A stretch of DNA of 64,000 nt from Chlorobaculum limnaeum (GCF_001747405.1 NZ_CP017305.1:514001-578000); one strand, 5' to 3'. Positions 36,773 to 48,452 are shown, numbered from the stretch's first letter. Translations and numbers: made by a program. Notes: a model not told the origin generated them from the letters alone.

Positions 36773-38315
36773 TTAAAAACTCCAGAACTCGCGGTCGAGG
36801 CTGCGGTACTGGATTCCCTGCACGAGGTGCTTCATTTCGATGTGCTCCGCGCCGTCGAGGTCGGCGATGGTGCGGCTGACCTTCAAAATCCGGTCGTGCG
36901 CCCTGGCCGAGAGGTTCAGGCGGTTCATGGCGTCCATAAGCTTTTCGGCGCTCTGCTGGTCGAGCTTGCAGAACTTGCGGATCAGCTTCGAGTTCATCTG
37001 CGCGTTGGTGAAGATGCGCGGCGAAGCGCTCGTGCTGCACGGCCCGCGCCGCGATGACCCGCTTGCGGATGGCGCTGGAGCTTTCGGCCAGATTGTTCGA
37101 GAAAAGCTCGATGTTCTCGACCTTCGGCACGTCGATGTGGATGTCGATGCGGTCGAGCAGCGGGCCGGAGATTTTGGAGAGGTAGCGCCGGATCTGCTCC
37201 GGCGAGGCGGTCGGCAGGCCGTCGCGATCCTTCAGCGGCCCGGCGGGGCTGGGGTTCATGGCGGCCACCAGCATGAAGCCCGCCGGATAGCGCGTCGAAA
37301 GCGCCGCGCGAGCCACGGTCACTTCGCGATCTTCGAGCGGTTGGCGCAGCACTTCGAGCGCGTTGCGGGTGAACTCCGGCAGTTCGTCGAGAAAGAGCAC
37401 GCCGTTGTGCGCCAGGCTCACCTCGCCCGGTTTGGCCTGCGCCCCGCCGCCGATAAGGGCGACGTTGCTCGTGGTGTGGTGCGGGCTGCGGAAGGGGCGG
37501 GTGATCATGAGCGGACGGTTGCGTTCGAGCAGGCTCGATACCGAGTAAATCTTGGTCGTTTCGAGCGACTCCTCGAAGCCGAGCGGTGGCAAAATGCCCG
37601 GTATCGCCTTTGCGAGCAGCGTTTTGCCGCTGCCGGGCGGGCCGATCATGAGCAGATTGTGCCCGCCCGCCGCCGAGATTTCGATAGCCTTCTTGGCGGC
37701 GAGTTGGCCCTTGATCTCGGCGAAATCGACAGGGTACTCCGGTTCGCAGTCGAACAGCTCCGCCACGTTGACACTCACCGGCTCGGCGGTGATGGAGCCG
37801 TTGAGCAGCCCGGCGGCCTCGACGAGCGTTTCGACGCCGAACACCTGCGTCGCCGCGCCGGTCGCCGAAATCGCCACTGCCGCCTCCGCCGCGTTCATTT
37901 TGGGCACGATCATCCAGCGGATGTTCTCCTTCGCGGCCATCACGGCCATCGGCAGCGTGCCGCTGATGCGCCGCACCGAGCCGTCGAGCGCCAACTCGCC
38001 AAGTACGATGGTCTCCTCGAACGGCCCCTTGATCTCGCCAAGCGAGCCGAGCAGCCCGACGGCGATGCCGAGATCGAACGAAGTGCCCTCCTTCTTGACG
38101 TCCGCAGGCGCAAGGTTGACCGTGATTTTCTTCGACGGTAACTCGAAGCCGGAGTTGCGGATAGCCGTCAGAATCCGCTCTCGGCTCTCCTTGATCGCGC
38201 TGTCCGGCAGCCCGACCACTGTGAAGGCAGGCAAGCCGCCGGAAACATTGGTTTCAATCTCGACCTTCAGGGCATCGATGCCCAGCAGCGCCGCCGCGCA
38301 GAGTTTGGTAAGCAT
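36773..38315 (-). pseudogene. comM: comM (Mg-chelatase-like AAA+ ATPase), frameshifted
   Basis: From ATG 38315 the product is a YifB/ComM protein: N-terminal Lon-like fold (GLPAFTVVGLPDSAIKESRE), Walker A GPPGSGKTLLAKAIPG, HHTTSNVALIGGG and Walker B GVLFLDELPEF. After VQHERFA (near 37022) the frame turns into non-homologous sequence, while the expected C-terminal part (MNSKLIRKFCKLDQQSAEKL to REFWSF) continues in another minus frame and stops at 36773. One extra base near 37015-37022 explains this; joined, the protein is about 513 aa, the family length. ComM is a branch-migration helicase for natural transformation. It is a real mutation or a sequence error. Confidence 0.85.
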
Positions 38316-38661
38316 ATATGAGACAATGAGTAGGGGGTGATTCACTGCCAGCGCCGATTACAAGGGTTTAGGGGATAACCGCCGCTTTCACCTGATTATA
38401 CGAAAAAATACGGTGAATTCCGCATCGCGAGATACTGGTATTGGGTCGATATGGAGCAGGTGCCGAGGATTTTGATGGTGAGATGACTTTTTTTACTTTA
38501 GCTAAAAGTAGTTGTTTTATCGGCTGATTTTTCTGGAGTGTGCAGATAGATTGAAACCAAAACAAGAAAATTACGACAAAAAAACAGAATAAGCTTCCCG
38601 GCCAATTGTTAATGTACGGCGGAGGTGAGGAAACGCCCATTGATATAAATATATACTTAAT
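38316..38661. other. AT-rich non-coding stretch
   Basis: About 350 bp after the comM start with no convincing gene. Composition shifts from GC-rich to AT-rich within it, and a small inverted repeat (TACTTT/AAAGTA around AGCTA) lies near 38505-38522. It probably marks the left edge of an accessory patch reaching to the ppc 3' end. Confidence 0.5.
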
Positions 38662-38882: not shown

Positions 38883-39188
38883 ATGCCAAAAATATATGTA
38901 TACCTTGGGATTGTTATTCTTTTCTACAGCAATGAACATGAGCCGATCCATGTTCACGGTAAGTTTCAGGGATGCGAGTCCAAGGCAGAAATTATTATTG
39001 AAAATGGGAAGGTTATATCTATTGTTATCCAGTCTGTTAAGGGCAGAAAAGGGTTGTCGTCGGCAGTCTTGAATGATTTCAAAGTTTTCGTTGAAAGCAA
39101 CGCTGATAAAATAGTCGAGAAATGGATAGACTATTTTGTGCTCCATAAACAAGTGCAGTGCGAAATAATAGACAGGAGAATCAAATGA
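38883..39188 (+). CDS. DUF4160 domain protein
   Basis: 101 residues. The beginning MPKIYVYLGIVILFYSNEHE, then PIHVHGKFQG with two His, and the later AEIIIENGKV match the DUF4160 pattern (G-I-x-I-x-F-Y-x2-E-H-x-P-x-H-x-H). The conserved His/Glu hint at a metal or catalytic site, but function is unknown. It overlaps the next gene by 4 bases (ATGA). DUF4160 and DUF2442 genes often sit side by side in bacteria, and a toxin-antitoxin role has been suggested; I see no direct proof. AT-rich relative to its neighbours. Confidence 0.8.
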   Translation: MPKIYVYLGIVILFYSNEHEPIHVHGKFQGCESKAEIIIENGKVISIVIQSVKGRKGLSSAVLNDFKVFVESNADKIVEKWIDYFVLHKQVQCEIIDRRIK

Positions 39189-39448
39189 TTTCGGATGAAC
39201 AGGTGATTTGGATAGAGCAGGTCAACTACTTGGGTGACTTCAGGCTGGCGCTTTTTTTTAATGACAATACCAGTCAACAGATTGACTTTTTCCCATTTCT
39301 TTCATCTTCTCGAAATCCTCTCATCAGGAAGTACCTCGATATTGAGGAGTTTCGTAAATATTCTCTTGATGCGGGTGATCTGGAGTGGAATGATTATGAT
39401 CTTTGTTTCCCGATTGCTGATCTCTATGAAAACAGAATATCGCGATGA
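39185..39448 (+). CDS. DUF2442 domain protein
   Basis: 87 residues from ATG 39185, whose ribosome site (GGAGAA) lies inside the DUF4160 gene. The layout is VIWIEQVNYLGDFRLALFFNDN, then IDFFPFLS, IRKYLDIEEFRKYSLD, and the closing W-N-D-Y-D-L-C-F-P-I-A-D-L-Y, the DUF2442 signature (W-x2-G-x-D-L-x-P-x-x-L-Y). It is a small beta-rich protein of unknown function, probably the binding partner of the coupled DUF4160 protein. Confidence 0.8.
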   Translation: MISDEQVIWIEQVNYLGDFRLALFFNDNTSQQIDFFPFLSSSRNPLIRKYLDIEEFRKYSLDAGDLEWNDYDLCFPIADLYENRISR

Positions 39449-39532: not shown

Positions 39533-40141
39533 CTATACGTAAACGCCGCCTCCGCTATTGTGCCTGTTGCGCAGTTCGGCGAGCATCTGCTTTTCGGTCA
39601 TATTTTTCGCCCAGTCTGGTCGTAACTGAAAGTGGGGCTGGTCAACGATGGTTTTCCAGTTTCCCCCCCATTCGAGTCCCAAGTCCACTCCCAACGCGCC
39701 GACGGCTTTGTATTTGGGAGATTCGTCCAGATACTTGTTCCCTTCGAATACGCCAATGTCGAAGGCGATGCCGAAGTTGTGATTGGAGTATCCGCCCTTG
39801 GCTTTGGTGACTTTGCTTCCGGGTTCGGTTCGTCCCTTGGCGTAGAGCGCATTCTGCTCGGCGTAGGTTCTGAGTCCGCTGATGATTTTGATTGTGATGC
39901 CGACGCTGGCGGCTTTATGGACGAGGGCGCGGGCCATAGGCTGCACCTCGGGCAGGAGCGTGGCGATTGCCTTTTCGCTCCGACTGTCAACCGTCGTGAC
40001 GGTGGCCGTCGGCTCGGTATCTGCCGACTTTTGCGGAACGATGCGTTGATAAATCGCGCCCCAGGTTTGGGGGCCAGCCTTGCCGTCAACGCTGATACCG
40101 AGTTCCTTCTGGATCGCGGAAATCATCTCTTCGATGCGCAT
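39533..40141 (-). CDS. M15-family L-alanyl-D-glutamate endopeptidase (endolysin-like)
   Basis: 202 residues. The first 40 residues (MISAIQKELGISVDGKAGPQTWGAI) are a peptidoglycan-binding-like repeat; the rest is an M15 zinc peptidase: ISGLRTYAEQNALYAKGR, YSNHNFGIAFDIGVF (S-x-H-x2-G-x-A-x-D, His and Asp zinc ligands) and VDQPHFQL with the last His. The fold matches CwlK and phage endolysins. There is no signal peptide, as in phage lysins needing a holin. A good ribosome site (CAGGAG) precedes ATG 40141. A phage or mobile origin is possible; no other phage genes are seen. Confidence 0.85.
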   Translation of the reverse strand: MRIEEMISAIQKELGISVDGKAGPQTWGAIYQRIVPQKSADTEPTATVTTVDSRSEKAIATLLPEVQPMARALVHKAASVGITIKIISGLRTYAEQNALYAKGRTEPGSKVTKAKGGYSNHNFGIAFDIGVFEGNKYLDESPKYKAVGALGVDLGLEWGGNWKTIVDQPHFQLRPDWAKNMTEKQMLAELRNRHNSGGGVYV

Positions 40142-40240
40142 GAACGTCTCCTGTCTGGTTGATGAAAAAGCTACAAAAGAGTCATTATCAGAAAAAGGCA
40201 GGGTCGGGTTGCTCGATGTCCGCCCGAGAATTTTCTCTTT

Positions 40241-40465
40241 TCACTCCGTAGTCCGTAATCCTCCCGATATGGCGTTGACTGTCAGCAGCAGTTCGGGATG
40301 CAGTGCGTCGGCCTGTTCTTCGTTGCCGGAAGCGTTGGCGGTTCGCCAGCTTTTGAGCAGATCGATCTGCAAGCGGTGCAGTTTGCCGAGGCTCTCATGG
40401 CGGTTTTCGATGAAACGGTAGACGTTGAAGTGTTTTTCCCTGAATGGAGTTGTGTTTCGGTACAT
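40241..40465 (-). pseudogene. Duplicated 3' fragment of ppc
   Basis: An ORF of 74 codons whose last 67 residues copy the C terminus of PEP carboxylase encoded at 41731-44496: REKHFNV, RFIENR, LGKLHRLQIDLLK, WRTANASGNEE and PELLLTVNAISGGLRTT are shared, with about nine substitutions. Homology also holds at DNA level and ends within a few bases of the stop codon. The first seven codons (MYRNTTP) are unrelated. It cannot form an enzyme and is best read as a partial duplication that brackets the UbiA-like gene with the true ppc end. Confidence 0.88.
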
Positions 40466-40595
40466 CCTCTCCGGTGATGGGTTACACAGCCGGGTTTACC
40501 ATTCGTTCAATGGAACAATATAAGAATCTTGACGGTCGTGGCTCATGGTCGTCAACTCACTGCCCGGCTATTCCATCAACAGCGGCCCGAACGGA

Positions 40596-41465
40596 TTATC
40601 TCGCATAGAAGGCGATCAATCCGAAAGAGAGAAAGAGAACGGTGGCCAGAACGATGGTCAGGTCACTGATTTTGCGCATGAATGGTTCCTTGTGCTCTGA
40701 GTACAAAGTGGCGATGAGCATGACGGCAATATTGTTCAACAAAAGAAAATAGCTTGATGCCGGCAGGATTTTTGTAAAGGTGAACCCGAAGAGAATCGCT
40801 CCGGAGATGAGGCTTATGGCGATGAGCAGTCGTTTGGTTTGCGGAAAGGTCAAGGTGTTTCCGATCGTTTTGATTCCGCTTACGAGGTCTCCTTGGCTAT
40901 CGCGCATGTCCCACATCACTTCGATAAAAAATGCGCAGATAAAAACATAGCCCCAGCAGATCCAGGCTTTGAGCGATAGCGGACGGCCTTCGAAGAAGAG
41001 GGGAAGAAAGATGAGCGCGGTTGCCCAGTCGAGCGGAGGGGTGAGATTTTTTACGATGTAGATATCTTTCAGCCGTCGCGCGCCCTTCAAACGTTTGGCG
41101 AGACTGGCTGGAAAGCTCTTGTGATTGTAGAGATAACCGATGACGATGATGAACGTTGTGGCCAGAAAGGCTGATGCGCCGAATCGTGAGGCGATCACCA
41201 GAGAAAGAATGGAGATCAGATAGAAAATCACATAGGTGATGAACATATCACTTTTGGAGGCGAGTTCAAGACTGTCGGGGTCGTTGATGGCATCTTCGAT
41301 ATCATCGGTAAGGCGGTTGTACTGGTAAATTGAAAATGTCAGCAGAAAAACGGTCAGAATGGCCCAGGCATTGAGCGGAATTTCGAAATAGACCGACCAG
41401 CTCGCGGCGGCAAGCGCTGAAAGAAGTGAAAGGTGCAGTTTGTTTCTGAAAAAATAGCGCAGCAT
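40596..41465 (-). CDS. UbiA-family prenyltransferase
   Basis: 289 residues, about eight to nine transmembrane helices. Both Asp-rich motifs of the UbiA superfamily are present: YQYNRLTDDIEDAIND (N-x3-D-x3-D) near residue 50 and MWDMRDSQGDLVSGIKTI (D-x3-D-x3-G) near residue 185. Such enzymes move polyprenyl groups onto quinone precursors, chlorophyllides, hemes or lipids. It lacks close features of BchG/ChlG that I could recognise, so the acceptor is open. It is embedded between the ppc gene and the ppc 3' fragment, with 130 bp and 265 bp gaps. Confidence 0.85.
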   Translation of the reverse strand: MLRYFFRNKLHLSLLSALAAASWSVYFEIPLNAWAILTVFLLTFSIYQYNRLTDDIEDAINDPDSLELASKSDMFITYVIFYLISILSLVIASRFGASAFLATTFIIVIGYLYNHKSFPASLAKRLKGARRLKDIYIVKNLTPPLDWATALIFLPLFFEGRPLSLKAWICWGYVFICAFFIEVMWDMRDSQGDLVSGIKTIGNTLTFPQTKRLLIAISLISGAILFGFTFTKILPASSYFLLLNNIAVMLIATLYSEHKEPFMRKISDLTIVLATVLFLSFGLIAFYAR

Positions 41466-41671
41466 GGAATGTTTTCAGCTCGGATTCAGTGACGATATTC
41501 ATCGGTTGCACGTATGGAGATGCTCATTTCTGCCGTCTTGCACTAACCGCGAGAGCTGCGATGAAAGTTTCTCGCCGCGAATTCAGTGACGTGCGCAGCA
41601 GCGGCGACGATTGTTCGCTGACGGTCATGGCTCTTGCTGGCTCAAGGCGATCCGTTTGACAATGAAAGAGC

Positions 41672-41697
41672 GAAGCCCCGACTGGCGCCAGGGCTTC
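41672..41697 (-). terminator. Hairpin downstream of ppc
   Basis: GAAGCCC/GGGCTTC arms with a 12-base loop. The arms resemble the acs terminator. The T content after the stem on the minus strand is only moderate. Confidence 0.5.
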
Positions 41698-41730
41698 ATA
41701 CGTTGATCGTCTTGTTCGCCCATTGTGCGC

Positions 41731-44496
41731 TTACCCTGTTGTCCGCAATCCTCCCGAAATGGCGTTGACCGTGAGCAGCAGCTCGGGCAGCAGGGCATTG
41801 GCCTCTTCTTCGTTGCCGGAGGCGTTGGCGGTTCGCCAGCGTTTGAGGAGGTCGATCTGCAAGCGGTGCAGTTTGCCGAGGCCCTCCTGGCGGTTTTCGA
41901 TGAAACGGAAAACGTTGAAGTGCTTCTCGCGGAGCGGGCCGCCGTAGAGCAGGTCGAGCAGGCGCATCGTGCGGAGGTATTCGGCCTGGATCATGCCGAG
42001 AAGGTTTTCGCGGATGCATCGATCCTCCACCAGCGCGGCGTATTGCTCCATGATCCATGGATCGACAGACAGGATACTGGTGGCGATGTTGTTTATTATA
42101 TAATGAAATGGCGCCCAGGAGAAGTCGCTTTTGCGCATCACCTCGAAAGTATCGGGATCAGTGGCGCGAAGCTCTTCGAGCGCCGTGCCCGCGCCGTACC
42201 ATCCGGAGATGCCGAATCGCGCCTGGTTCCAACTGAAGACCCACGGGATGGCGCGGAGGTCTTCGAGGCTCTGCCGCCCGGTGCGGCGTGCGGGGCGCGA
42301 GCCGATGCGGCTCGATTCGATGATGTCGATCGGCGTGGCCTGGCGGAAGAAGTCGATCAGCCCGTCGGCTTCGATGAGCTGCCGGTAGGCTTTGTTGCTG
42401 CTGCGTGCGAGCGTGTCCATCGCCTTTTCGAGCTGGTGGGGGCGATAGCCCTCCTTGCGGTGGTCGAGCCGCGCTTCAGTGACTCCGGCCAGGAAAAGTT
42501 CGAGATTATACGCCGCGCTGATGCGGTTGGCGTATTTCTGGGCGATGGTCTCGCCCTGTTCGGTGACGCGGAGTCCGGCGTCGAGCGAGCCGTGCGGCTG
42601 CGCCCGGATGAAGCGATGGGTCGGCCCCGCCCCGCGGCTGATGCTGCCGCCGCGTCCGTGGAAGAAGAGAATATCGACGCCGTGTTTCCGGCCCGCCTCG
42701 ATCAGGCGCTCCTCGGAACGGTAGAGACTCCAGAGGCTCGCGACGATGCCGCCATCCTTGTTGCTGTCGCTGTAGCCGACCATTACCTGTTGCACGGGCT
42801 TCTTCCGCCCTTGCAGCTCCTGCTGCAAGGCAATGCTGCGGCGCGTGACCGGATGCGCGAGAAAGCGGTCGAGAATTTCGTGGCTGCGTTCGAGGTCGTC
42901 GATGGTCTCGAAGAGCGGCACCACCGGAATCGGGCAGGCGTCGCCGTCGCCCTGTGGCGTCATGAGGCCGACCTCGCGGGCGAAGAGGTAGATGACGAGC
43001 AGATCCGAGACGTTGCGCGTCATGCTGACGATCAGCGAGCCAATGCCGTCCGGGCCGAACTGCCGGTAGTGCTCGAAGAGCACCCGGTAGCAGGCGAGCA
43101 CGATTTCAGCCTCCGGCCCGGCGTGCATGTCGGGGTGGGTGAAGGGGCGTGGCGAGAGCAGTTCCCGGTCGAGGAACGCGAGACGAGCCTCTTCACTCCA
43201 TTCCGGAAAGCCTTTGCCGTCGAGGCCCGCCGCCGTCATGAGCTGCGAGAGGGCAAGGTCGTGGAAGCGGCTGTTCTGGCGGATGTCGAGCCGTCCGAGG
43301 TGAAAGCCGAAGGTCTGCACGATGCGGTAGACCGGCGCGACGTCGCCGAGCGCGATGTTCCGCGCGTCGATGGCCGTGAGCGAGGTCATCAGCAGCTCCA
43401 GGTCGGCGAGCAGCTCGGCGTGGCGGCGGTAACTATATCTTTCGGGTTCTGTTTTTCCGGCGAGTTGTGTTGCGGTTTCGTCCGGTAAAGCCGCGATCAT
43501 GAGATTGACGAACTGCCGCCACGGCTCGTGCAGGTTTCTCTCGAAGGCTGCCATCCCTTCCTCTCCGAGCTTGTGGCGCAACGTTTCCATGCGCTCTTCC
43601 ATCGCTCCGGAGGGAGACTGGAAGCGGCCTGAGAGGCTGAGCATCGAGGCGAGCCATTCGAGCTGGCGGCGGACCAGACCGATGGCGTGGCTGCGCATCT
43701 CCTGAAGGGTTTCCTGCGTGGTTTCAGCGGTTACGAGCGGATGGCCGTCGCGGTCGCCGCCGACCCAGCTCCCGAAGCTGAGGCGCGGCAGGTTGCGCGG
43801 ATCGGCGGTGGTCGCCGGGTCGAATCCGGCCACGGTCCACGCCTTTTCGAGGCGGCTGTCGAGTATCGGCAGGATGTCGGGGAAGATGGTGTGCAGGTAG
43901 TGCAGCACGTTCTGCCGTTCGGCGCTCACCTCTGGCTTGACGAACAGGATTTCGCCGGTGCGCCAGAGTCGTTCGAGCACCACCTTGATGTCGGCGCGGA
44001 TTTTATCTCGCTCGGCGGGCGTCCACATGCGGTTCTCGCGCTTGACGAGCAGGAGGTACAGTTCGCGGTGTTGTTCGAGCACAGTGCGGCGCTTGGCTTC
44101 GGTCGGGTGAGCCGTCAGGGTTGGCTCGACCTCGATGTCGGGAAGTTCCGCCGCTATTTCCGCTTCGGCGACGCCGAGGTTTTTCAGGTGGCGGAGCGCT
44201 TCTCCCCAGAGGCCGCTGAGCGACTCGACGCCCTCCTTCGATTCGAGGCGGCGGCGGTACTGGGCGGCGGAGTTCTCCTCGGCCATGTTGAGCAGCTGGA
44301 AGACGATCGACCATGCCTGAATGGCGCGTTCCGCCTGGACGAAATCCCCGACAGGTGATTTGCTGTCGCCGCTGATGTGCCGGGCGAGTGAATGCTGCCC
44401 GAGATTTTCCAGCACCTCGACAAAGCAGTCGAGCAGGTAGCGAAAATCGAGCGAGGCTTTGTCGAAATCGACGACGCTGGTCGTTGAGGTGATCAT
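41731..44496 (-). CDS. ppc: Phosphoenolpyruvate carboxylase
   Basis: Carboxylates PEP to oxaloacetate, feeding the reverse TCA cycle. 921 residues, normal length. Active-site segments are LTAHPTEAKRRT (His), SFGSWVGGDRDGHPLVT, VGYSDSNKDGGI, FFHGRGGSISRGAGPTH and QARFGISGWYG. The C terminus NAISGGLRTTG is the usual one (R-x-T-G). Bacterial PPCs of this type are often controlled by acetyl-CoA and aspartate; no regulatory element is evident in the DNA. It is divergent from pscC over a shared 209-bp region. A partial copy of its 3' end lies at 40241. Confidence 0.97.
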   Translation of the reverse strand: MITSTTSVVDFDKASLDFRYLLDCFVEVLENLGQHSLARHISGDSKSPVGDFVQAERAIQAWSIVFQLLNMAEENSAAQYRRRLESKEGVESLSGLWGEALRHLKNLGVAEAEIAAELPDIEVEPTLTAHPTEAKRRTVLEQHRELYLLLVKRENRMWTPAERDKIRADIKVVLERLWRTGEILFVKPEVSAERQNVLHYLHTIFPDILPILDSRLEKAWTVAGFDPATTADPRNLPRLSFGSWVGGDRDGHPLVTAETTQETLQEMRSHAIGLVRRQLEWLASMLSLSGRFQSPSGAMEERMETLRHKLGEEGMAAFERNLHEPWRQFVNLMIAALPDETATQLAGKTEPERYSYRRHAELLADLELLMTSLTAIDARNIALGDVAPVYRIVQTFGFHLGRLDIRQNSRFHDLALSQLMTAAGLDGKGFPEWSEEARLAFLDRELLSPRPFTHPDMHAGPEAEIVLACYRVLFEHYRQFGPDGIGSLIVSMTRNVSDLLVIYLFAREVGLMTPQGDGDACPIPVVPLFETIDDLERSHEILDRFLAHPVTRRSIALQQELQGRKKPVQQVMVGYSDSNKDGGIVASLWSLYRSEERLIEAGRKHGVDILFFHGRGGSISRGAGPTHRFIRAQPHGSLDAGLRVTEQGETIAQKYANRISAAYNLELFLAGVTEARLDHRKEGYRPHQLEKAMDTLARSSNKAYRQLIEADGLIDFFRQATPIDIIESSRIGSRPARRTGRQSLEDLRAIPWVFSWNQARFGISGWYGAGTALEELRATDPDTFEVMRKSDFSWAPFHYIINNIATSILSVDPWIMEQYAALVEDRCIRENLLGMIQAEYLRTMRLLDLLYGGPLREKHFNVFRFIENRQEGLGKLHRLQIDLLKRWRTANASGNEEEANALLPELLLTVNAISGGLRTTG

Positions 44497-46597: not shown

Positions 46598-47445
46598 ATA
46601 CTGAAGCATCGGAGAAGCGTCCGATACAGACATCCGCCGAACAGCTCTGGTCGTGGCATGGCGGCAGCGGTGCGCTCATCTGGCAACTGATGTTTGGCGG
46701 CGAAACGGTGATGGGCATCAATCGTTTTCCACAGGAGCGCAAGGCGTCGTTCTTCTGCCTCGAATCCTCCTCGGGCCGCGTGCTGCGTGACGATTTCGTG
46801 CTGACTTTCGATAATGGCGAATCTGAAGCTCCGGTTGGTGACGGCTGGATGATCGGGCTCGAAACGGTTCACGGCAACCTGCTCTTCTGCCACGCATACC
46901 AGGCTGGAAGCCCGGAGCACCAAGGCATTTGGGCGCTCGATCTTCCGGCAGGGCGCGTCTCCTGGGGCCGTCCCGATCTCGTGTACATGGCCAATTTCGG
47001 CGATGCCATTCTCGCCTACCGGTCGATCGTCTTCGCGGGGTTTCCCGAGCGGGACTACTTCCTGATCGATCCCTTGACCGGTCGCGAACTCGAACACCTC
47101 GGCACGGCGCACGAGCGTCCCAACCGGCTCCGCGACGCGGCGCAAAGCGAAGAGGAGCGGCAGGGCATTTTGCTGCCCGATGCCACTTTTGACGAGCTGG
47201 GCCACGTCGAGCATATCGAAAGCGGCTCGATGACCGTCACGGTACGGCACCGGATGGAGCACGGCGCGGAGGGCATTCCCGCCTGGGTCTCCACGCTGTG
47301 CGTGAGCGAAGGTGATCGCCTCATCCATGAAGCGGTGATGGCTTCCGGGGAACCGATGCCGGTTTTCAACAGTTTTCTCATCAAAGACGACCGGTTGTAT
47401 TACATCAAAGAGAGAGAGAGCCTCGTCAGTCTCGTTATTTCATGA
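46594..47445 (+). CDS. DUF4905-like conserved protein
   Basis: 283 residues, soluble, rich in beta-propeller-like strands. The beginning (WSWHGGSGALIWQLMFGGET, then MGINRFPQERKASFFCLE) and the middle (GIWALDLPAGRVSWG; DYFLIDPLTGREL) suggest repeated blades with alternating W-x-L-D-x-x-x-G units. This matches, as far as I can recall, DUF4905 of Bacteroidetes/Chlorobi; function unknown. Coupled by 4-base overlaps to the methyltransferase before it and the recombinase after it. Confidence 0.6.
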   Translation: MNTEASEKRPIQTSAEQLWSWHGGSGALIWQLMFGGETVMGINRFPQERKASFFCLESSSGRVLRDDFVLTFDNGESEAPVGDGWMIGLETVHGNLLFCHAYQAGSPEHQGIWALDLPAGRVSWGRPDLVYMANFGDAILAYRSIVFAGFPERDYFLIDPLTGRELEHLGTAHERPNRLRDAAQSEEERQGILLPDATFDELGHVEHIESGSMTVTVRHRMEHGAEGIPAWVSTLCVSEGDRLIHEAVMASGEPMPVFNSFLIKDDRLYYIKERESLVSLVIS

Positions 47446-48452
47446 AGAGAAGCACCCCTGATCGAGTTCCGAAAAAAGAGGTCGCCAGTTTCCGGTGGCT
47501 CGATGCGTTTCTCGCGTATCTCCAGTCCGCCCGCAACGTCTCGCCTAAAACGGTGACGGCTTACACGACCGATCTGATCCAGTTTTTTGAATTCCTGAAG
47601 GAGGAACGCGGCCTCGACGCTCTTGCCGCCGTCGATCCGGAGCTGGTCGAAGTGCCCGATGTGCGGCATTTCATGGGCCGCCTGCTCGATAGCGGCGTCA
47701 AGCCCCGTTCGATTGCGCGCAAGCTCGCCTCGGTCAAGAGCTTCTACCGTTATCTGCTCGATACCGGAAAGATCGACCGTTCGCCGCTTTCCCTGGTTCT
47801 CACACCAAGGCTCGACCGGAAGATGCCCGAATTCCTGAGCGAAGAGGAGGCGTCGCGGCTTTTTGACCAGTTTTTGCCGTCAGAGAGCAACTGCTCCGGC
47901 GAGGAGGATCGACGGAAAGTCGGGGAGCGGATGTTCGAACTGTCGAGAGACCGTGCGGTGCTCGAAGTGCTCTACGGTTGCGGCCTGCGAATCTCCGAGG
48001 TGACTGGTCTGGAAACCGCTGATATCGATCTCGCGCATGGCTTTCTGAAAGTTACCGGAAAGGGGCGCAAACAACGGATCGTGCCGCTTGGCGAACCCGC
48101 CGCCGAGGCGCTCAGAAATTATTTTGAAGTCAGGCGAAACTTCTTTAGAATATTGAAAGAGGGGGCTGGTGAAGCTTCGAGAGTCTTCGTAACGGCAAAA
48201 GGCAGACAGATTTATCCCATGCTTGTGCAGAGAATGACAAAGAGGTATCTCTCAGCGGTTACCGAATCGGAAAAGAAAAACCCACACATGCTCCGGCACA
48301 CCTTTGCAACGCACATGCTCAACGGCGGAGCAGACCTGAAAAGCGTCAGCGAAATGCTCGGCCACAGCAGTCTGACGACCACGGAGCTGTACACCCATGT
48401 GACGTTCAACAGGCTGAGGGAAGTTTATAACAAAGCTCATCCGAGGGCCTGA
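47442..48452 (+). CDS. xerC: Tyrosine recombinase XerC/XerD
   Basis: 336 residues. N-terminal SAM-like core-binding domain (YLQSARNVSPKTVTAYTTDL; RSIARKLASVKSFYRYLLD), then the catalytic domain with all residues: Arg in GCGLRISEVTGLE, Lys in VTGKGRKQRIVPLG, His-x2-Arg in HMLRHTFATHML, His in LGHSSLTTTELYTHV and the Tyr nucleophile in the same stretch. It resolves chromosome dimers at dif. It is longer than the usual 300 residues because of an extra segment around 140-160. XerC versus XerD cannot be decided. The overlap with the DUF4905-like gene argues against a phage integrase. Confidence 0.9.
   Translation: MKRSTPDRVPKKEVASFRWLDAFLAYLQSARNVSPKTVTAYTTDLIQFFEFLKEERGLDALAAVDPELVEVPDVRHFMGRLLDSGVKPRSIARKLASVKSFYRYLLDTGKIDRSPLSLVLTPRLDRKMPEFLSEEEASRLFDQFLPSESNCSGEEDRRKVGERMFELSRDRAVLEVLYGCGLRISEVTGLETADIDLAHGFLKVTGKGRKQRIVPLGEPAAEALRNYFEVRRNFFRILKEGAGEASRVFVTAKGRQIYPMLVQRMTKRYLSAVTESEKKNPHMLRHTFATHMLNGGADLKSVSEMLGHSSLTTTELYTHVTFNRLREVYNKAHPRA

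Follow-up and report, generated by a model that had tools for sequence, protein, structure and literature searches.

The 64,000-nt window of Chlorobaculum limnaeum DSM 1677T analysed here (NZ_CP017305.1:514001-578000) carries the 3' end of ppc, the phosphoenolpyruvate carboxylase (PEPC) gene, twice in direct orientation, and the sequences surrounding the second copy suggest that an end-to-end join of two alleles took place at this point in the gap that separates ppc from the YifB/ComM-family gene comM. The genome (G000) is assembled as one contig of 2,797,276 bases and was compared with those of relatives including C. thiosulfatiphilum DSM 249 (G016), Chlorobaculum sp. 24CR (G010) and the metagenome-assembled genomes (MAGs) G001, G006, G009, G011 and G013. 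The coordinates of all features are collected in Table 1.

A repeat search identified one 201-nt direct repeat (40243-40443 versus 41733-41933, offset 1490) with 87% DNA identity, all remaining repeat families of the 8-kb region being 33 nt or shorter. The distal copy matched PEPC residues 854-920 with 88% protein identity in tblastn, and the open reading frame (ORF) containing it (40241-40465, minus strand) matched the Pfam PEPcase profile (E 2.4e-8, profile positions 860-918/919). Direct repeat, Pfam and tblastn agree with the original prediction, made on this DNA before the present analysis, that the last ~67 codons of ppc are present twice in the same orientation. The extent then given to the second copy, 40241-40465, was found to be ppc-derived up to ~40446, with the alignment limiting the homology to ~40241-40446, whereas the ORF opens with seven codons, up to 40465, of junction sequence unrelated to ppc. 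The second tail is placed 1,490 bp beyond the first in the direction of ppc transcription, and the UbiA-like gene predicted between the copies was recovered (Pfam UbiA, 46.3 bits against a cut-off of 34.2). An identical arrangement with an identical 5' junction of the fragment was found in C. thiosulfatiphilum, and an assembly artefact was therefore ruled out, since this isolate, sequenced independently, has the layout as well. The repetition of the ppc tail is thus confirmed as real and as recurring once, and the arrangement is probably older than the split of C. limnaeum and C. thiosulfatiphilum.

The spacers immediately 3' of the two tail stop codons differ. The spacer following the true ppc (J2) is common to C. 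thiosulfatiphilum and G009 and leads to the UbiA gene, while the spacer following the fragment (J1) resembles the sequence 3' of the true ppc in 24CR and G006, where a gene for an M15 peptidase comes next; this gene is whole in C. thiosulfatiphilum and G006 and has lost its N-terminal part in 24CR. The presumed partner alleles are thereby also found separately, ppc-J2-UbiA in G009, a member of the sister clade, and ppc-J1-M15 in 24CR and G006, and the window allele appears from these comparisons to be the former fused to a ppc tail-J1-M15 segment. On one side of this fusion ppc is continuous; on the other, its homology ends abruptly at ~40443-40446, as in C. thiosulfatiphilum. The 152-nt spacer 3' of UbiA was found only in the window genome and C. 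thiosulfatiphilum, with ~21 nt past the UbiA stop codon also present in G009, and a 23-nt match to it in G014 was set aside as being at chance level. As both the join and the spacer preceding it are common to the two species, a single origin is indicated. The comparison proposed with the original prediction, of the region downstream of ppc in relatives without the UbiA gene, placed ppc next to M15 in 24CR and G006 and next to comM in more distant genomes; the two separate partner alleles with their differing spacers uphold its proposal of lateral exchange with related DNA over simple tandem duplication.

The arrangement is explained, with moderate confidence, by one-sided homologous recombination combined with an illegitimate join, followed by gene conversion and a probable loop-out in 24CR. 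DNA homologous to the flanking core genes would have entered the gap in a common ancestor of C. limnaeum and C. thiosulfatiphilum, natural transformation being the likeliest vehicle, and the alleles ppc-J2-UbiA and ppc-J1-M15 would have become fused end to end. Homologous recombination in a flank (ppc or comM) would have attached the incoming DNA at one side; at the other, an illegitimate join would have formed at the present ~40443, among the final 206 nt of a ppc copy, leaving the tail of that copy in front of M15. The two tails may later have exchanged sequence by gene conversion, and 24CR would probably have lost UbiA by a crossover between them. Integration through homology on one side, completed by an illegitimate second join, has been described (PMC3240628). 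C. tepidum has been called naturally transformable (PMC5473272), and C. limnaeum has been used for constructing mutants.

For the direction of this exchange, phylogeny favours the ppc-tail-M15 segment as the newcomer and UbiA as the resident. A 3.1-kb marker tree gave the topology (G000,(G010,G016)) beside (G011,(G001,G009)); trees of parts of ppc agree with it in the key clades, with some nodes weak and shifting. UbiA divergence amounts to 5.6% between C. limnaeum and C. thiosulfatiphilum and 8.2% for either against G009, the corresponding values for ppc being 9.0%, and 10.9% and 10.4% against G009. Since the divergence of UbiA parallels ppc and the species tree, the ppc-UbiA adjacency is likely ancestral: the data fit its presence in the ancestor of the six genomes, a later arrival of ppc-tail-M15 and a loss of UbiA in 24CR, although transfer between lineages may provide an alternative to the ancestral adjacency. 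UbiA is accordingly probably the older resident, with the ppc-tail-M15 segment more likely to have arrived later. Crossing over between the tails would produce exactly the ppc-J1-M15 order of 24CR, and since this strain and C. thiosulfatiphilum are sisters in the tree, loss is the simpler account of the missing UbiA, probably by loop-out between the tails.

The opposite direction, in which a ppc-M15 recipient took up a ppc 3' end together with J2 and UbiA, and 24CR preserves the original empty site, is a serious rival to which we give limited credence; it shares its mechanism with the favoured explanation and differs in direction only, so that the likelihoods assigned to the two partly overlap. 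It accommodates the ppc-J1-M15 order without UbiA in 24CR and G006, as well as the patchy occurrence of UbiA in the genus (8 of 21 genomes), but M15 is equally patchy, and the position of 24CR in the tree speaks for loss. The original prediction had likewise treated UbiA as an inserted newcomer, a view disfavoured by G009, which shares the ppc-UbiA order together with its intergenic sequence, and by the divergence of UbiA, which follows the genus tree.

A Campbell-type event, in which a circle carrying a ppc 3' end and cargo integrates at ppc by a single crossover and duplicates the tail, would yield exactly an intact gene, cargo and a truncated direct copy. In E. coli, partial target duplication by a single crossover is the usual outcome of one-sided integration, the products of one-ended substrates being mostly single-crossover duplications of 109-950 bp and not truly illegitimate (PMC3240628). 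However, none of the cargo proteins scanned was recognised as the product of a plasmid or replication gene, and the separate ppc-UbiA (G009) and ppc-M15 (24CR, G006) alleles are left unexplained unless 24CR underwent loop-out and M15 was present beforehand, which makes such an event unlikely.

In a tree of the tails, each fragment groups with the ppc of its own genome (0.87 and 0.98). The two copies within C. thiosulfatiphilum are 96.1% identical, and the fragments of the two species differ at 34 of 201 sites. Because the junction is common to both species and yet the fragments group with their own ppc, these sequences point to gene conversion between the tails; the foreign origin that the original prediction had drawn from the divergence alone does not follow. 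The same grouping would be expected if the ppc 3' end had been duplicated in tandem long ago within the lineage, with UbiA or M15 inserted afterwards, and had been named, together with an arrangement shared by all relatives, as the outcome that would speak against lateral exchange; the fragment does group with the resident ppc, but the arrangement was found in just one other sampled species. Conversion explains the grouping, as the junction is common while the tails differ between species, and J2 and J1 are not copies of one another but match the alleles of G009 and of 24CR and G006, respectively. Moreover, the C. limnaeum fragment branch, polarised by the majority of relatives, carries 11 synonymous and 5 nonsynonymous changes, small counts from which ~10.8 nonsynonymous changes would be expected if all 16 were neutral (P 0.0024), unlike the simple decay of a local copy. 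A tandem origin is thus considered improbable.

The fragment retains a 74-codon ORF that is in frame in both species. On this account, and for its low number of nonsynonymous changes, a functional small PEPC-derived protein was considered; it was dropped, as the C-terminal TTG of PEPC is altered in both fragments (TTE in the window, MTG in the other) and conversion with ppc explains the pattern. Given the changed C-terminus, the ORF is taken as part of a recombination scar with no functional element, which is the best explanation of the fragment.

The gap in which this scar lies is variable across the family. In the commonest close arrangement ppc is followed at 71-168 bp by comM, an adjacency that occurs throughout Chlorobium and the deep Chlorobaculum lineages; the comM of C. 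thiosulfatiphilum scores above the TIGR00368 cut-off. Among the 60 loci with enough flanking sequence, comM lies within 400 bp of ppc in 25 and at least 1 kb away or out of sight in 35, some of the latter being limited by the 3-kb flank and one (L164) not belonging to Chlorobiaceae. On the opposite side of ppc, a cytochrome-like gene stands at 170-452 bp in 59 of the 59 loci where it was found. The same two core genes thus enclose differing gene content in related genomes: UbiA, M15 and a DUF4160/DUF2442 pair in the window; a PtuA/PtuB (Septu-type) pair between M15 and comM in C. thiosulfatiphilum (L031:7809-9709); a type ISP/IIG restriction enzyme-methyltransferase, a Panacea-domain protein and a small gene beside UbiA in G009 (L032:1678-7756); and RTX-like repeat proteins in G013, G014 and G019. 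By this pattern the ppc-comM gap is an accessory-gene hotspot in Chlorobiaceae, which to our knowledge has not been listed previously and into which cargo would have entered by the process proposed above. A tyrosine recombinase gene near ppc (47442-48452) has XerC and XerD as its best-scoring models and keeps a syntenic position in each of the eight genomes searched, and is therefore of housekeeping type. No integrase was found between ppc and comM in these eight genomes, and among the gaps scanned for mobility genes, which were a part of the total, that of the window is clean and that of G011 contains an apparent transposase gene, recognised by eye. The hotspot holds cargo that includes phage-defence genes, with no integrase recognised.

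Leftover pieces of the flanking genes were also found in other gaps. In G013, cargo resembling that of G012 (84%) is followed by a decayed, frameshifted ppc piece (about -287 to -73 at 76%, with a further upstream piece seen against G012) and then by an RTX-like gene; the decayed piece lies at L036:2227-2521, between TerB-like cargo and the RTX-like gene. In G011 the full comM is preceded, at a distance of ~6 kb, by another comM 5' end (~548 nt at 90%); the apparent transposase gene lies between the two comM copies (L046:11625-19730), in an arrangement that mirrors the ppc scar. G001 has an inverted ppc end of 32-36 nt with J2 and the first part of UbiA; this assembly is a mixture of Chlorobaculum strains with three different ppc contigs (L034, L047 and L048). 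A 44-nt inverted ppc match in G009 was taken as chance. As the leftover ends differ among C. limnaeum/C. thiosulfatiphilum, G013, G001 and G011, with no fixed att core, they argue against a fixed att site and for recombination guided by flank homology.

Site-specific integration, with the ppc 3' end as att site and a small or decayed element supplying a replacement end in the manner of islands at tRNA genes, would account for cargo at a gene 3' end, a restored gene and a displaced end in direct orientation, but is very improbable given that in the eight genomes searched the sole tyrosine integrase near ppc is the syntenic Xer gene, that the leftover ppc ends vary by genome and G011 has a comM 5' copy at the opposite flank, that most occupied gaps have no ppc repeat, and that a 201-nt repeat at 87% is unlike an exact core. 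ARAGORN found zero tRNA genes in the window, and the island-like insertion put forward in the original prediction is not sustained by the Xer gene and the differing leftover ends.

Several points weigh against one-sided recombination with an illegitimate join as the origin of the window allele. Identity in a sliding window along ppc displayed no sharp break between donor and recipient, and the native tail is blurred by gene conversion. The ancestral junction is too diverged for microhomology to be read, and the partner sequence 3' of UbiA is not kept in G009. Of the genomes that supply comparisons, G001, G009, G011 and G013 are MAGs, G001 being mixed with its three ppc contigs. A truncated flank copy can arise by other processes, and the apparent transposase gene of G011 lies near the comM copy.

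Table 1. Features of the ppc-comM region (positions in the window)
Feature	Position	Strand	Basis
ppc, phosphoenolpyruvate carboxylase, 921 aa, intact; left flank of gap	41731..44496	-	Pfam PEPcase 749 bits, residues 54-921
Proximal repeat copy, the true ppc 3' end	41731..41935	-	Direct repeat D1, 87% identity; alignment
J2, spacer between ppc and UbiA	41466..41730	-	Common to G016 and G009; relic in G001
UbiA-superfamily prenyltransferase, 289 aa; cargo	40596..41465	-	Pfam UbiA 46.3 bits
Spacer downstream of UbiA, up to the putative illegitimate junction (~40443-40446)	40444..40595	-	Sequence comparison
Distal truncated ppc 3' end (probable scar); 74-codon ORF to 40465	40241..40446	-	Repeat, Pfam, alignment
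J1, spacer between ppc tail and M15	40142..40240	-	Resembles sequence 3' of ppc stop in G010 and G006
M15 (VanY-like) peptidase, 202 aa; cargo	39533..40141	-	Pfam Peptidase_M15_4 and VanY
Two small genes, DUF4160 and DUF2442; cargo	38883..39448	+	NCBIfam matches below cut-off
comM, YifB/ComM-family Mg-chelatase-like AAA ATPase; right flank of gap	36773..38345	-	Frameshifted by 14-nt deletion

The UbiA protein contains the Asp-rich motifs NRLTDDIED and DMRDxxGD, in which only T55-type positions vary slightly in an alignment of five homologues; for its substrate, no NCBIfam model scored above cut-off and no PDB sequence matched at E 0.1. UbiA homologues also occur at other sites in G008, G004, G007 and G019 (L042, L043, L044 and L045), those of G008 and G004 with a SOUL-like gene adjoining and a hisB-like gene near (named by eye). 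A candidate terminator-like hairpin, GAAGCCCTGGCGCCAGTCGGGGCTTC, followed by a T-rich run was read by eye in J2. The M15 protein has a weak peptidoglycan-binding match in addition to its Pfam domains, and the DUF4160 and DUF2442 genes overlap and resemble the DhiT/DhiA toxin-antitoxin pair, under the NCBIfam cut-offs. Relative to G016, G010 and G003, the 14 nt missing from C. limnaeum comM lie between short repeats, and the shifted frame continues into the downstream porin-like gene to form a single 1009-codon ORF; as the assembly is 454-based, comM is at most a candidate pseudogene.

From the leftover flank pieces, the route that cargo takes into such hotspots becomes legible in the sequence itself. 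Two cultured species with paired repeats and a probable loop-out strain also offer a system open to testing, in a genus whose model species is transformable. We tentatively suggest that truncated flank copies (ppc tail, comM head) could be recurrent fossils of one-sided transformation recombination in green sulfur bacteria, and that the short repeats they form could act as loop-out points that speed the turnover of cargo at the ppc-comM hotspot.

Like genomic islands that rebuild the 3' end of the gene they insert into, the window allele has a restored target and a displaced 3' end at the far side, but differs in having no integrase, in leftover ends that are not fixed and in the involvement of both flanks. 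Homology-facilitated illegitimate recombination has been described in S. pneumoniae, A. baylyi and P. stutzeri, and in E. coli (PMC3240628); it likewise combines one homologous with one illegitimate side and may leave a partial target copy beside foreign DNA, whereas the present case is a putative instance read from an old scar, with a junction too diverged for microhomology. Recombination at the flanking core genes is known to diversify hotspots that lack mobile elements, which are found more often in transformable species (PMC5635113). The conserved ppc and comM flanks, the fast-changing cargo, the lack of a recognised integrase and a transformable member of the genus are shared with such hotspots, but here truncated copies of the flanking genes stay in the gap of several genomes, which points to one-sided and not double exchange. 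Genes and process are ordinary, and the ppc-comM gap is a new instance of established kinds with an unusually legible scar.

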